Origin: an archaeon
GTDB lineage: Archaea; Nanobdellota; Nanobdellia; Pacearchaeales; GW2011-AR1
Assembly: GCA_018693315.1 (NCBI GenBank)
Contig: JABHLR010000001.1
Span: forward strand, 1-36,453
Length of the DNA: 36,453 bases
Direction of reading: 5' to 3'
The notes beneath the pieces were generated by a model. That model ran no database searches. It saw only the letters and a program-made list of their open reading frames with translations, and was not told the origin of the DNA. The stretch's first letter is position 1. Each line of letters begins with the position of its first letter. Shown here piece after piece: positions 1-9,228 of this stretch. A program made the position numbers and the translations under genes.

Positions 1-3000
1 AGTAAGAGTTGGTAATTATTATGGCGGAGGTAATTATTATCTTAACGGAACAATCGACGACGTCCTAATTTTCAATCGTTCATTGTCTGCAGATGAAATT
101 CTTGGGTTATACAATGCTTCGAGGGTTTCGCATACTGAAACTTTGGCGGATGGGGCGCATGAGTTTAGGGGGTGGACTCAGGATTTGGCTGGGAATGTTG
201 ATGCTAGTGGGTTGCAGAGTTTTAATGTTGATGCGGCGGGGCCTACGGTTTCGTTTGGGACGGGGGTTTTGGCGAATGGGAGTCAGACTGCTAATAATTG
301 GATTTTTATGAATGTGAGTTCGATTGATGTTTTGAGTAATGTTTCGACGGTTATTAATTATGATAATAGTTTGGTGAGTTGGTGGAGGATGGATGATGTT
401 AATGGGTCGTGTTATGATGATGAGACGGAGATATTAACAGATGATGGTTGGAAGTTGTTTGGTGATTTGGATAGAGACGAGAGGGTTATGACTTTGAACC
501 AGGAGACTGGTGAAAGTGAGTGGCAGATGCCTATGGATTGGCAGGAGTTTGATAATTCTAAGTTGGGTGGAGAGATGTATAATGTTTTGCTTGAGGATGG
601 AAGTGAGTTGGTTGTGAGTGAGAAGCATAGGGTTTATGTTAGTGATAGTATTTCAGAAAAAGAAATCAAAGGTGCTGAAAATATAGCACCAATGGTAACA
701 CAAATCTCCACAGATTGTAATTATTTGAATTTGAGAAACTATATAAATGTTTCTGTTAATAGTAGTATTGCCGAGAGTGCTCCTGTAGCATCAATGGTAA
801 TGCGCCCGTCTCAAAAACGGGGTCTCCACAGACTTTCGGGTTCGATTCCCGGCGGGAGCGTCTCGGCATTTAATTTCTCTTTGGAAAGGGTGACTGAAAC
901 TTATTTGAGGTTTGAGGGAGGGGATGTGATTTATTTCTTAAATGGAGATAGTGAGGTTGTTAGGGTTGAGAGTATCGAGAAGGTTGATTATGATGGGAAG
1001 ATTTATGATGTTGATGTGGGGAATGATGTTGTGTTGGTTCGGCGACTTGGGAGTTCTGAGTTATGGAGTGGGAATAGTGATCCTGTTGATTATATGGGTT
1101 TGAATAATGGGAGTGCGGTTGATGGTGCTGCGCAGACTGATGCTGGGAAATTTGGGAAGGGGTTTTCGTTTGATGGGGATGGGGATTATTTGGATGTGAG
1201 TGCGGATTCGAGTTTGAATTTCTCTCAGAATTATACTATTTCATTATGGGTGAAGGCGATTGATGATTGGGATGATATGTCTTCTGATTATGCTATATGG
1301 GATGCGGGTATGCATACTGCTTCAGCGGATCATTATTCATTATTAAAAGTTGATGCGGATGGGTCTAATAATTTACAATATATCACAACGTCAGATGGAA
1401 GTAAATCTGTGTATAGTGCAAAAACAGCGTGGAATGCTGAGCAATGGTATCATGTAGTAATTGTCCATAATTCTTCTAATTATATTTTGTGGTATATTGA
1501 TGGTTCTTTAGATGATGAGGATAGTTTTTATGCTTTGAATCAGGCTAATTATAACGGTTTCCATTTCGGAGTTAGGGATACAACAGGTAGTGGTGCTGTT
1601 TATTTCAATGGAACTCTTGACGACGTAATGATATTTAATCGTTCACTCTCAGCTGAAGAGATACTTGGACTTTATGCAAATCAAACATCTCGTTATTTGC
1701 CGATTAATTATACTGGGCTTGGTGAGGGGTATCATACGTTTAAGGGGTATGCTCAGGATATGGCGGGGAATGTGGATGCTAGCTTGGAGGTTCGGACTGT
1801 GCTTTCGGATTTGGCTTATCCTTTGGTTGATTATGATTCTTCGACTCCTGCTGATGTGAGCTATACTAATGGAACTAGTTTGTATGTGAATGTGTCTGTT
1901 ATTGAATCGAACTTTGCGAATATTACTTTTACACTACATAATTCTTCTGGTGAGGTTAATGTTACGACTTATACTAGTTTGGTTCAGGAGATTAATTGGA
2001 CGCTTGGAGCTGATGGGAATTATACTTACAATGTGACTGTTGTTGATTTGGCTGCTAAGGTTAATTCGACAGCGACGAGAACTTTGGTTAAGGATACGGT
2101 TGCGCCTGCTTTGGTTTTGAATACTGAAGGGATGCCTGATAATAATTCTGTTGGGGCTTCGAGTGCTTTGTTTAATTGGACTGTTTCGGACAATATTGAT
2201 GGTTCGATAGCTTGTTATCCTACGACGAGCGTTGATGGTGATTTGACGGGAGTGAATGTGGCTAATGCTACTACGAATTGGTCGACTGAGACTTTGAGTG
2301 GTGGGACTCATTTGATGAGGGTTAGGTGTGAAGATGATGCTGGGAATTCTAATACTACTTTGGCTTCGATAACTTATCTTGTTGCTGTGATTAACTTTTC
2401 GGCGCCTGTTAATAATTTGACTTATAGGATTGGGGATGAAGTTACTTTGTTTGTTGAGGAATTGGATGGGACGGACTTTTTGACTAATGTTACTATTCCT
2501 ATTGTTAGAGCTGGTTCGATTTTTGAGACTGCTAATTCTGTGGAGGTTGCTAGTAATAATTGGAGCGTGAGTTATACTTTGCCGTCGATATCGCCTACTT
2601 ATTTGACAGCTAGAGGTCAGGCATTTAATCAGAGTGTTGGTGCTAGTCAGAATGTTACGCAGAATGTTGGGTTGATTCTTTTGAGGGCTGCTGGGAATAC
2701 TTCTGTTCCAACGATGACGAAGATGTGTCCTAATCGGACTTATGTGATTAATGCTACGGACGCTTTGATTGAGGTTGTTAGTGATTTGGATACTTTGGTT
2801 TATAGTACGACTTTGAATGTGACTTCTCCATCTGGAATTAATTATACTTTGAGCGCTGATGTTTCGACGCAGGATACGGACAGTTATGTTAACTCTGAGA
2901 ATTATACTTTGGTTGTGAATGAGACTGGGGTTTGGACTATTAATTCGACTGTTGAGGACTTTGAGAATCAGAGTATTAGTTCTGCTTATAATTTGACTTC

Positions 3001-4321
3001 GGCTACTTCGTTTAATACTTATAGTATCAATTCGTCGACGGTGACTAATATGTCGGTGCAGGATAGGTGTGATGGTGCGGAGATTGATCAGAATACTAAT
3101 ATGGATGTTGTGGTTGTTGATGGGGCTTTGCTTGATTTGAATGTTTCGATTGATGAGCCTTTGGTTAATGCTACTGAGATGAATATTTTCTTTAGGGAGT
3201 TGAACTTGACTGGGAATGTTAGTGACGCTGTTAACTTTACTTTGAGGACGAATGAGACTGATGCGCCGACCAATGAGAGGAGGATTTTGACTTTTGATTT
3301 GAATTCGAGTTTGAACTTTACTAATTATACTATTACTTATGATTATTCGGATGTTGCGCATAGTGTTGCGAATGAGAGTGCTTTGAAAATGTGGAAGTGT
3401 GCGAATGCTTCGAATTGTACTTTGGTTGAATTGAACTCTACTGTTAATGAAACTGCTGATACTATCTCTGCTACTGCGACTAACTTTTCGAGGTTTATGA
3501 TTACTGAACCTGCTTCTAGTAATGAGACTGCCACGGAGACTGTGACTGTGACTGTTTCAGGAGGGGGTAGTACTGTTACGGAGACTGTTTATAGGAGTTT
3601 GCAGTTGCTTGTTCCTGGGACTGTTGAGTTGAGTTTGGCTGATGAGGTTGTTGTACCGATACAAGTATTGAATCCAGAGGATGTTGCTATGAGTGGGATT
3701 GCTTTGAATGCTTCGCCTAATACTGAGGACTTGAGCGCTGAGTGGGAGAAGAATGAGATTGAGAGCTTGGGTGCTGGAGAGAATGAGACTATTTTGTTGT
3801 ATCTTGAGTCGCATTCTAAGCCGGGCGAGTATGATGTTGATATTACTGCTACTGTTACGTCGCCGATGGTTCAGGAAACTGCGAAGCTTTATGTTAGACT
3901 TGTCGAGGCTATTGGGAAGGAGACTTTGGTTGAGAGGATTGTTTTGGCGACTGATATGTTTAGGGAAAATCCTGAGTGTTTGGAGTTGAACGATTTGTTG
4001 GAGGATGCGGAGTTGAAGCTTGAGGCTGGGGATATTGAGGGGAGTAAGGATAGAGTTCAGTTGGCTATTGCTAAATGTAAGGATTTGATTGCTGGGAAAG
4101 AGTCGCCGTTGATTTATACTCGATATAGGGAATGGTTGGTTCCGGTTTCTATTGCTTCTATTTTATTGGCGATTGCATTTGCGGTTGTGATATTATTAAG
4201 GAAGCCGAAGTTTAATTTTTATAAGAATAAGGAGAAAAAGTCGAGTAGAGGATGGTTTGGATTTGGGAAAAAGAAGAGCAAGAAGGTTGGCGGGAAAAAG
4301 AAGAAGGGTGTTTTTAGTTAG
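1..4321 (+). CDS. Large LamG-domain surface protein, 5' end outside the window, C-terminal TM helix and basic tail; contains a Hint/mini-intein insertion
   Basis: Frame stays open from base 2 (…NGTIDDVLIFNRSLSADEILGLY…), so the annotated start at 83 (TTG) is probably not real. LamG-like segments (SLVSWWRMDDVNGS…DGDGDYLDVS…GTLDDVMIFNRSLSAEEILGLY) and C-terminal TM segment WLVPVSIASILLAIAFAVVILL followed by a K-rich tail. Confidence 0.85.
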   Translation, partial: VRVGNYYGGGNYYLNGTIDDVLIFNRSLSADEILGLYNASRVSHTETLADGAHEFRGWTQDLAGNVDASGLQSFNVDAAGPTVSFGTGVLANGSQTANNWIFMNVSSIDVLSNVSTVINYDNSLVSWWRMDDVNGSCYDDETEILTDDGWKLFGDLDRDERVMTLNQETGESEWQMPMDWQEFDNSKLGGEMYNVLLEDGSELVVSEKHRVYVSDSISEKEIKGAENIAPMVTQISTDCNYLNLRNYINVSVNSSIAESAPVASMVMRPSQKRGLHRLSGSIPGGSVSAFNFSLERVTETYLRFEGGDVIYFLNGDSEVVRVESIEKVDYDGKIYDVDVGNDVVLVRRLGSSELWSGNSDPVDYMGLNNGSAVDGAAQTDAGKFGKGFSFDGDGDYLDVSADSSLNFSQNYTISLWVKAIDDWDDMSSDYAIWDAGMHTASADHYSLLKVDADGSNNLQYITTSDGSKSVYSAKTAWNAEQWYHVVIVHNSSNYILWYIDGSLDDEDSFYALNQANYNGFHFGVRDTTGSGAVYFNGTLDDVMIFNRSLSAEEILGLYANQTSRYLPINYTGLGEGYHTFKGYAQDMAGNVDASLEVRTVLSDLAYPLVDYDSSTPADVSYTNGTSLYVNVSVIESNFANITFTLHNSSGEVNVTTYTSLVQEINWTLGADGNYTYNVTVVDLAAKVNSTATRTLVKDTVAPALVLNTEGMPDNNSVGASSALFNWTVSDNIDGSIACYPTTSVDGDLTGVNVANATTNWSTETLSGGTHLMRVRCEDDAGNSNTTLASITYLVAVINFSAPVNNLTYRIGDEVTLFVEELDGTDFLTNVTIPIVRAGSIFETANSVEVASNNWSVSYTLPSISPTYLTARGQAFNQSVGASQNVTQNVGLILLRAAGNTSVPTMTKMCPNRTYVINATDALIEVVSDLDTLVYSTTLNVTSPSGINYTLSADVSTQDTDSYVNSENYTLVVNETGVWTINSTVEDFENQSISSAYNLTSATSFNTYSINSSTVTNMSVQDRCDGAEIDQNTNMDVVVVDGALLDLNVSIDEPLVNATEMNIFFRELNLTGNVSDAVNFTLRTNETDAPTNERRILTFDLNSSLNFTNYTITYDYSDVAHSVANESALKMWKCANASNCTLVELNSTVNETADTISATATNFSRFMITEPASSNETATETVTVTVSGGGSTVTETVYRSLQLLVPGTVELSLADEVVVPIQVLNPEDVAMSGIALNASPNTEDLSAEWEKNEIESLGAGENETILLYLESHSKPGEYDVDITATVTSPMVQETAKLYVRLVEAIGKETLVERIVLATDMFRENPECLELNDLLEDAELKLEAGDIEGSKDRVQLAIAKCKDLIAGKESPLIYTRYREWLVPVSIASILLAIAFAVVILLRKPKFNFYKNKEKKSSRGWFGFGKKKSKKVGGKKKKGVFS
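671..716 (+). repeat. Degenerate partial copy of the tRNA-like sequence (D-arm and variable-arm blocks, no anticodon arm)
   Basis: TAGCACCAATGGTAA (684-698) vs TAGCATCAATGGTAA (786-800); TCTCCACAGATT (705-716) vs TCTCCACAGACT (823-834); same order. Spacing differs by 16 nt. Confidence 0.6.
769..868 (+). repeat. Perfect 8-bp inverted repeat flanking the embedded tRNA (TGCCGAGA 769-776 / TCTCGGCA 861-868)
   Basis: Direct reading. With T778-G860 wobble and the acceptor stem it makes a 16-bp helix with one bulged G777. Confidence 0.85.
779..860 (+). tRNA. tRNA or tRNA-like gene with long variable arm, anticodon CAA (Leu by anticodon), embedded in the intein-coding region
   Basis: Acceptor GCTCCTG/CGGGAGC (one T-G wobble), D arm GCAT-CAATGGTA-ATGC, anticodon arm CCCGT-CTCAAAA-ACGGG, variable arm GTCT-CCAC-AGAC, T arm TCGGG-TTCGATT-CCCGG, residue 73 = G. 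Confidence 0.75.
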
Positions 4322-8136: not shown

Positions 8137-9228
8137 TTGTTTGTGATGGTTACAAAGAAGGACGTTGATGAGGTGAAAGAGGCTATTTCTGGGGATGAAG
8201 AGATTGAGGAAGTTGAAGAGATTGAAGAGATTGGGGAAATTGAAGCTGTGAAGCCGGCTAAAGTTAAGAAAGAAGATAAGCCTGCTAAGTTGATTGATAT
8301 CCCTGGGGTCGGTCCTGGGGCTGTTGCGAAGCTGGAGGCTGCTGGGATTTATGAGTTGATGGGGTTGGCTGTTTTGACGCCTTCTGGTTTGAGTGAGCTT
8401 GCTGGAATGAGTGAGACTGTTGCGAGGAAGGCGATTCAGGCTGCGCGGAAGATGATGGATATGGGTTTTGTTGACGGGCTTGCGCACGAGGAGAAGAGGA
8501 AGGAGTTGTTTCATATTACTACTGGTTCGAAGAATATTGATAATTTGCTTGGGGGGAAGGGGTTGCAAACTAAGGCGATCACTGAGGCTTTCGGGGCGTT
8601 TGGATCTGGGAAGACTCAGTTGGCATTGTCTTTAGCTATTGGCGTTCAGTTGCCTATTGAGAGCGGTGGTGCGAATGGTAAGTGTGTTTATATCGACACA
8701 GAGGGGACGTTTCGGCCTGAGAGGGTTAGACAATTCGCTGAGGGGATTGGCGCGAATCCTGATAAAGTTTTGAAAAATATTTTGGTTGCTCGGGCTTTTA
8801 ATAGTGACCATCAGATGTTGTTGTTGGATCGTGTTGCTGAGATGATCAAGGATGGTGAGCCGATTCGTTTGATGATTATTGATTCTTTGACTGCACATTT
8901 TAGGGCTGAGTATTCTGGGCGGGGGCAGTTGGCTGATAGGCAGCAGAGGTTGAATAGATATTTGCATAATTTGATGAAAGTTGCAGAGCAGAATAATCTG
9001 GCTGTTTATGTTACGAATCAGGTTATGAGTGATCCGGCTCAGATGTTTGGAGATCCGACGAAGGCGATTGGTGGGAATATTGTTGGGCATGCATGTACTT
9101 ATCGAATGTATTTGAGGAGAGGGAAGAAAGATTCTAGGATTTGTAAATTGATTGATAGTCCTGATTTGCCAGATGACGCTACAGCGTTTATGATTGAGAC
9201 TGATGGTTTGAAGGACATAGACATTTAG
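8137..9228 (+). CDS. radA: DNA repair and recombination protein RadA
   Basis: HhH DIPGVGPGAVAKLEAAGIYELMGLAV, GAFGSGKTQLALSLAIGVQLP, YIDTEGTFRPERVRQFAEG, VTNQVMSDPAQMFGDPTKAIGGNIVGHACTYRMYLRRG. Confidence 0.97.
   Translation: MFVMVTKKDVDEVKEAISGDEEIEEVEEIEEIGEIEAVKPAKVKKEDKPAKLIDIPGVGPGAVAKLEAAGIYELMGLAVLTPSGLSELAGMSETVARKAIQAARKMMDMGFVDGLAHEEKRKELFHITTGSKNIDNLLGGKGLQTKAITEAFGAFGSGKTQLALSLAIGVQLPIESGGANGKCVYIDTEGTFRPERVRQFAEGIGANPDKVLKNILVARAFNSDHQMLLLDRVAEMIKDGEPIRLMIIDSLTAHFRAEYSGRGQLADRQQRLNRYLHNLMKVAEQNNLAVYVTNQVMSDPAQMFGDPTKAIGGNIVGHACTYRMYLRRGKKDSRICKLIDSPDLPDDATAFMIETDGLKDIDI

Follow-up and report, generated by a model that had tools for sequence, protein, structure and literature searches.

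Why a complete tRNA gene should lie in frame within an intein, in the position of a homing endonuclease, is the question raised by this locus. The window analyzed here is one whole contig of 36453 bp within a 674-kb, 8-contig genome (87% complete). An open reading frame on its plus strand (positions 2 to 4321, 1439 aa, truncated 5' at the contig boundary) encodes a surface protein with LamG and Ig-like domains (Pfam Laminin_G_3, E 4e-24) and, from inspection of the sequence, a likely C-terminal membrane anchor. Within it, a mini-intein runs from Cys1 to the terminal Asn at 410-1075 (plus strand), followed by the +1 Ser at 1076-1078. Its Hint-N half (410-646) and Hint-C half (869-1075) matched profiles built including this sequence with 150.5 and 122.4 bits, respectively, the latter over 869-1078. 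The tRNA lies between these halves and the protein frame stays open through it, both as described in an earlier sequence-only reading of this DNA. The intein carries Cys1, the block B His, the terminal Asn and a +1 nucleophile; its penultimate residue is Gly, where His is usual, and its match to Pfam Intein_splicing (E 1.6e-4) was below the family cut-off. When the intein is taken out, the flanks LVSWWRMDDVNGS/SDPVDYMGLNNGSAV form a normal LamG stretch by inspection. AlphaFold2 modeled the Hint halves with pLDDT of ~90-97 and residues 88-152, mostly encoded by the RNA unit described below, as disordered (pLDDT <50), and the best Foldseek matches to this model were bacterial intein-like and intein structures. 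Domain searches of the host protein and the intein slot gave no match to a homing endonuclease; the central slot of 222 nt is occupied by the RNA unit.

The cloverleaf proposed from the letters was confirmed. ARAGORN called a tRNA with anticodon CAA at 778-862, and Rfam RF00005 scored 49.3 bits at 779-860 (E 9e-8; gathering score 29). RNA of 765-875 folded at -48.2 kcal/mol (z -4.8) into a cloverleaf with an extended acceptor. The gene (779-860, plus strand) encodes a class II tRNA with a serine-type body, the anticodon CAA at 812-814, G73 at 860, and an acceptor of 7 bp with a T stem of 5 bp, i.e., a 7/5 branch. Its leader (769-778) pairs through 769-776 with the trailer TCTCGGCA (861-868), after which a T-rich tract follows, and this helix covaries. 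Across 16 units, 27 of the 33 pairs of the cloverleaf and the leader/trailer helix showed double changes; double-change cells numbered 95 compared to 29 in shuffles, covariation was 0.53 compared to 0.21, and pairing fell from 90% to 43-44% when partners were slid by one column. Judged from these alignments, the RNA structure of the unit tRNA with its leader/trailer helix is under selection. The case that had been named as counting against the proposal, protein kept while stems decay, was found reversed, with the stems kept across unrelated host proteins. A misassembly is also unlikely, because other assemblies contain this unit too, in ~20 copies.

The leucine assignment suggested by the anticodon did not hold. 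In place of the A73 and leucine-type body of tRNA-Leu, the window tRNA has G73, and its body scored best with serine (Ser 32.0 versus Leu -4.5). The bodies of all 18 unit tRNAs were nearer to serine than to leucine tRNAs by best score, in a comparison with 34 serine sequences and just two for leucine. The serine assignment of the unit tRNAs consists of G73, the long variable arm and similarity to serine tRNAs, and the window tRNA shows all three; its acceptor, GCT..AGC, is unlike the GAG/GTG of the genome's own Leu. Nor is it the only CAA isoacceptor, as had been considered: a canonical tRNA-Leu(CAA) with A73 lies elsewhere in the genome (G000:C5:82472), so the window tRNA is dispensable for decoding. 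In long ORFs of the window, UUG is the commonest Leu codon (44%). The acceptor and T arm (779-788, 836-860) are near-identical to the genome's tRNA-Glu (C3:131-203). A tRNA-Glu chimera was rejected because other units have different acceptors, and this likeness was taken as convergence. A lineage without RNase P was likewise not supported, as RNase P RNA was detected with 80.8 bits, slightly below the gathering score. Elsewhere in the genome (G000:C6:132255-132329, L027), a tRNA with anticodon TCA and class I length has GC-rich flanks unlike those of the other tRNA genes, and is possibly contamination or a foreign insert.

The tRNA alone had been regarded as the cargo of the intein; instead, the cargo is a larger divergent unit that also comprises a predicted antisense RNA and includes 655-720. 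The complete unit (655-883, ~220 bp, with approximate outer limits from copy alignment and profile searches) fills the slot. It is arranged, left to right, as an A-rich stretch, a hairpin, copies of first the D arm and then the variable arm of the tRNA, a spacer, TATATAAA, a second spacer, the leader, the tRNA, the trailer and a T-rich stretch. The predicted antisense RNA, ACAAUCUGUGGAGAUUUGUGUUACCAUUGGUGCUAUAUUUUCAGCACCUUUGAUUU, reads on the minus strand (655-718) from a 5' end at ~718 to a 3' T-tract at ~670-655, and its predicted length across units is 50-65 nt. The R1 model, built including this copy, scored 64.8 bits at 660-758 on the minus strand. The terminator-like hairpin GGTGCTG/TAGCACC (671-690, minus strand) directly precedes the T-rich tract of 670-655. 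A hairpin with a T-tract is present at the antisense end in most copies; an unbiased shuffle control gave p<0.05 in 12 of 18, the permutation test of the hairpin being biased to own pairs by construction. The D-arm copy (684-702, minus strand) would let the antisense RNA pair with ~786-804, and the variable-arm copy (705-715, minus strand) with ~823-833.

Next, the match between each module and its tRNA was compared across the copies. The best match of the module was its own tRNA in 18 of 18 copies (sum 878, permuted 522, sd 29), the variable arm alone matched likewise (368, permuted 207, sd 14), and predicted antisense RNA:tRNA duplexes summed to -890 kcal/mol for own pairs compared to -534 for permuted ones (sd 30); 0 of 20000 permutations were as good in each case, counts that are not probabilities, since the kinship of the copies makes shuffles and permutations overstate independence. 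In the predicted pairing, the D arm and, nearly always, the variable arm are covered and the anticodon arm is looped out, and the anticodon and T arms had no match in the module in these 18 copies. Of two units found later, the L218 module again matched its own tRNA best (42 versus 34), and the L221 module did so marginally (32 versus 30). The latter favoured part of the anticodon arm over the variable arm, indicating that the unit layout is not uniform. Gene conversion between tRNA and module could explain part of the own-tRNA matching. As a sequence prediction, the unit thus contains what an RNA antitoxin would be, a putative antisense RNA adjacent to and specific for its RNA partner.

Both RNAs appear to share one promoter. 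The shared TATA element (739-757, with TATATAAA at 740-747) reads on the minus strand as a BRE plus TTTATATA, and the conserved minus-strand promoter block is AACAGAAAAATTTATATAGTT. An invariant A lies 25-26 nt off the TATA centre on the antisense side. The distance from the TATA centre is 25-26 nt to the leader helix and 27-29 nt to the variable-arm copy in most copies, so that either predicted RNA start is ~25-29 nt away from the TATA centre. A matrix derived from the promoters of the genome's canonical tRNA genes scored the window 10.2 in the antisense direction versus 4.9 in the tRNA direction, and the antisense direction was preferred in 16 of 18 copies; canonical tRNA genes, as the control, scored 13.5 forward and 4.0 reverse. 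The tRNA-direction promoter was weak in most copies. One TATA has been found to drive two starts, 49 bp apart, in Pyrococcus furiosus in vitro (PMC6640164).

When 181 genomes of this family were searched at the DNA level, relatives at 72-86% identity were returned, the weaker ones being ordinary tRNA-Ser genes. One peptide is common to the frames of the true unit relatives, and its profile found ~18 units, spread over about a dozen genomes that all belong to this family; a later profile search added L218 and L221, giving ~20 in total. L194 was dropped as an ordinary tRNA-Ser, and matches to the promoter part only were left uncounted as generic promoters. No full-length unit was found beyond the GTDB family in 378 genomes of the class, and a viral origin found no backing in IMG/VR, where Hint-C, a DNA pattern and the unit peptide matched weakly or not at all. 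The unit tRNAs have a serine-type body, G73 and a long variable arm, and in every copy a non-serine anticodon, those of related units including AAT, GAT, CAT, GTC, GAA and TAA. A35 is present in 16 of 18 anticodons, which would therefore read the hydrophobic codons of Leu, Ile, Met and Phe. Three of 18 copies (L187 at 8336, L190 and L195) missed the Rfam tRNA gathering score, and decayed copies occur.

Hint domains carrying a tRNA, the search for which had been suggested, do occur in related genomes. Six of the ~20 units are within inteins, in frame and at three Hint positions: in the N-Hint part (L188, L192), in the C-Hint part (L187, L189, L218) and in the central slot of the window. Units also occur in other proteins and at intergenic sites. 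The L200 unit is at the end of a DinD-like ORF (recognized by eye), those of L191 and of L187 at 3260 are in frame in long surface-type proteins, and the remainder are in short ORFs or intergenic DNA. The number of copies led us to reject the idea of one host tRNA captured once by the intein. The T arm/T loop of the unit tRNA is broken by ~50 nt in L187 (~8490-8550) and by ~20 nt in L218 (~1675-1700), possibly by archaeal tRNA introns or secondary insertions. In L189 (3697-4341, minus-strand coordinates), the unit is flanked by two copies of a Hint-C segment, as if Hint-C had been duplicated upon arrival of the unit.

Modules also occur on their own. Lone antisense modules without a tRNA were found in L208, L215 and L216, and arrays of antisense modules lie ahead of a complete unit in L190, L191, L198 and L218. 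The arrays hold 2-3 modules of ~100 bp, each with its own TATA and hairpin and without its own tRNA; one class of arrayed modules starts GGGTTCGAACAGA and looks like a T-arm plus D-arm copy. Some orphan modules match unit tRNAs well, such as L198_1 with the window tRNA (-47.3), and others have no clear target among the known unit tRNAs and are not separable from canonical tRNAs in this respect. No full-length unit tRNA without a module was found, in a search whose main tool, a whole-unit profile, collected most units and could thus miss module-less tRNAs.

The inteins related to that of the window carry another type of cargo. In essentially all of the ~two dozen related intein loci examined, with records including Pacearchaeota, Nanoarchaeota, Altiarchaeales and Methanophagales, the central slot holds an antisense toxin-antitoxin pair. 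These comprise PIN_2 toxins with RHH-like partners, ParE-like toxins and DUF433/DUF5615, the toxins being named by Pfam where tested and the antitoxins mostly by position and size. Such genes were noted in L084, L085, L086, L087, L088, L089, L090, L091, L093, L094, L096, L098, L099, L103 and L112. The sense frame of these inteins is open through the antisense genes. Upon synonymous-codon resampling of the antisense genes, many were expected to contain stops (e.g., 6.6 and 7.3 expected, 0 seen), and for some an open frame was unsurprising; the sense frame is broken in L092/L100 and L113. Archaeal inteins with complete antisense toxin-antitoxin modules, sometimes two per slot, form a widespread family. 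A pair and a tRNA unit apparently share one intein in L187 and L188, and likely in L189, L192 and L218. No antisense type II toxin-antitoxin ORF was found in the intein slot of the window, and among the examined loci no tRNA was found in the slot of sister inteins without the unit. The sequence-only reading had proposed that the intein is a protein-level harbour for an RNA gene. The presence of six units in inteins agrees with a harbour; the toxin-antitoxin genes of the sister inteins favour addiction over safe storage of a useful RNA gene.

The anatomy of the unit is well supported, and its function we infer from sequence. We give about an even chance to the reading that the window feature is one copy of a selfish two-RNA addiction unit of Pacearchaeota-family archaea, set in frame in the slot of a mini-intein. 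The antisense RNA would come from the strong promoter direction, and the tRNA from the weak one or from host-gene transcripts that run through it. By pairing with the D and variable arms, the antisense RNA would hold the tRNA unfolded or uncharged; the variable arm is a part that seryl-tRNA synthetase needs. SerRS ignores the anticodon and relies on G73 together with the long variable arm (PMC7609411), so anticodons could diversify while the antisense RNA covers the arm that matters. If the unit were lost, the stable tRNA would outlive the short antisense RNA, and the freed tRNA, charged with serine, would cause serine to be inserted where UUG calls for leucine. Both the unit and its carrier intein would thereby become addictive, as the sister inteins may be through their type II toxin-antitoxin genes. 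The unit-encoded peptide would be spliced out, leaving little cost to the host protein. More tentatively, and at somewhat less than an even chance, we propose an RNA-only module in which the toxin would be a mis-decoding serine-charged tRNA and the antitoxin an antisense RNA from the same TATA, which inteins would carry in place of homing endonucleases or antisense type II toxin-antitoxin genes; the orphan arrays would then confer immunity against other units.

Several other explanations must be weighed against this addiction reading. The multi-copy and scattered occurrence of the unit, in frame in unrelated ORFs and with decayed copies, would also fit a mobile tRNA-derived repeat, similar to SINEs or Rickettsia palindromic elements and without toxin-antitoxin function. 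The module would then be a structural by-product of repeat copying, and gene conversion would maintain its likeness to the tRNA. However, the module omits the anticodon arm in nearly all copies, and such consistent sparing of the same arms would be unexpected from gene conversion. The module also has its own BRE/TATA, start A and hairpin/T-tract, occurs solo and in arrays, and the leader/trailer helix covaries as RNA. We regard such a repeat as unlikely. Alternatively, the tRNA may be a decoy or antidote against tRNA-cutting toxins of the PIN/VapC type or a tRNA-targeting defence, with the antisense RNA setting its level. This would account for the diverse anticodon arms retained as perfect helices, and PIN toxins are indeed borne by the same kind of inteins, seemingly together with the tRNA unit in the five loci noted above. 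The intein of the window itself, however, has no toxin gene, and no link was found between the anticodon of a unit and the type of the adjoining toxin; we consider a decoy role improbable.

The position of the tRNA on the sense strand of a long mRNA, in a genome that likely has RNase P RNA (the 80.8-bit match given above), allows a further possibility, namely a cis-regulatory tRNA mimic at which RNase P/Z cleave the host mRNA and shut off the intein-bearing protein. Since several units are outside long genes, and the antisense module and the anticodon diversity would be left unexplained, this reading appears quite improbable. An ordinary working tRNA-Leu(CAA) that had entered the intein by chance would have the correct cloverleaf and anticodon, as observed, but neither G73 nor a serine-like body; it would also stand beside a canonical tRNA-Leu(CAA) in the genome and among related units with six other anticodons, and we hold this to be very improbable.

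If the addiction reading is true, a tRNA itself joins the known toxins, inteins can persist through addiction instead of homing, and a natural modular pair exists of a tRNA and a matching antisense RNA, in which the anticodon arm is free to vary. Whether or not the toxin reading is right, we found in open PMC papers neither a repeated in-frame tRNA/antisense unit nor inteins with an open frame across antisense toxin-antitoxin genes. The in-frame tRNA/antisense unit, in a slot where related inteins have toxin-antitoxin genes, suggests an RNA-only addiction module not described before.

Among known systems, inteins with homing endonucleases likewise carry a cargo in the central slot of a Hint domain, where the window has an RNA unit and the sister inteins an antisense toxin-antitoxin pair. 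Rickettsia palindromic elements are small in-frame repeats within protein genes and resemble the unit in this regard; we know of none that contains a tRNA gene with its own promoter and a paired antisense RNA, and this tRNA/antisense content distinguishes the unit. In type I toxin-antitoxin systems, an antisense RNA neutralizes another RNA through base pairing. The predicted antitoxin of the unit is likewise antisense, although its target would be a tRNA, compared to a toxin mRNA in type I systems. CreTA and other RNA-RNA toxin-antitoxin pairs are also close; in CreTA, CreT is a short tRNA-sequestering RNA and CreA, flanked by CRISPR-repeat remnants, is a crRNA-like guide that directs a CRISPR effector (PMC8501985). 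Such pairs and the unit would have in common a small RNA toxin tied to tRNA biology, an adjoining small RNA antitoxin and addiction, and both occur in archaea. In contrast, CreT is not a tRNA, whereas the putative toxin of the unit is one, and the putative antitoxin has complementarity to that very tRNA. Inspection of the alignment showed no CRISPR-like constant handles in the unit, which is bounded by a promoter and a hairpin that varies. Allo-tRNAs (Mukai et al. 2017; review PMC7609411) are class II and combine serine identity elements with varied anticodons that are not those of serine, and a link to transposons or toxin-antitoxin systems has already been suggested for some (PMC7609411). 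The unit tRNAs similarly are class II and serine-type with diverse non-serine anticodons. However, allo-tRNAs are bacterial with an 8/4 or 9/3 structure, whereas the unit tRNAs are archaeal, have a 7/5 structure and are accompanied by an antisense module.
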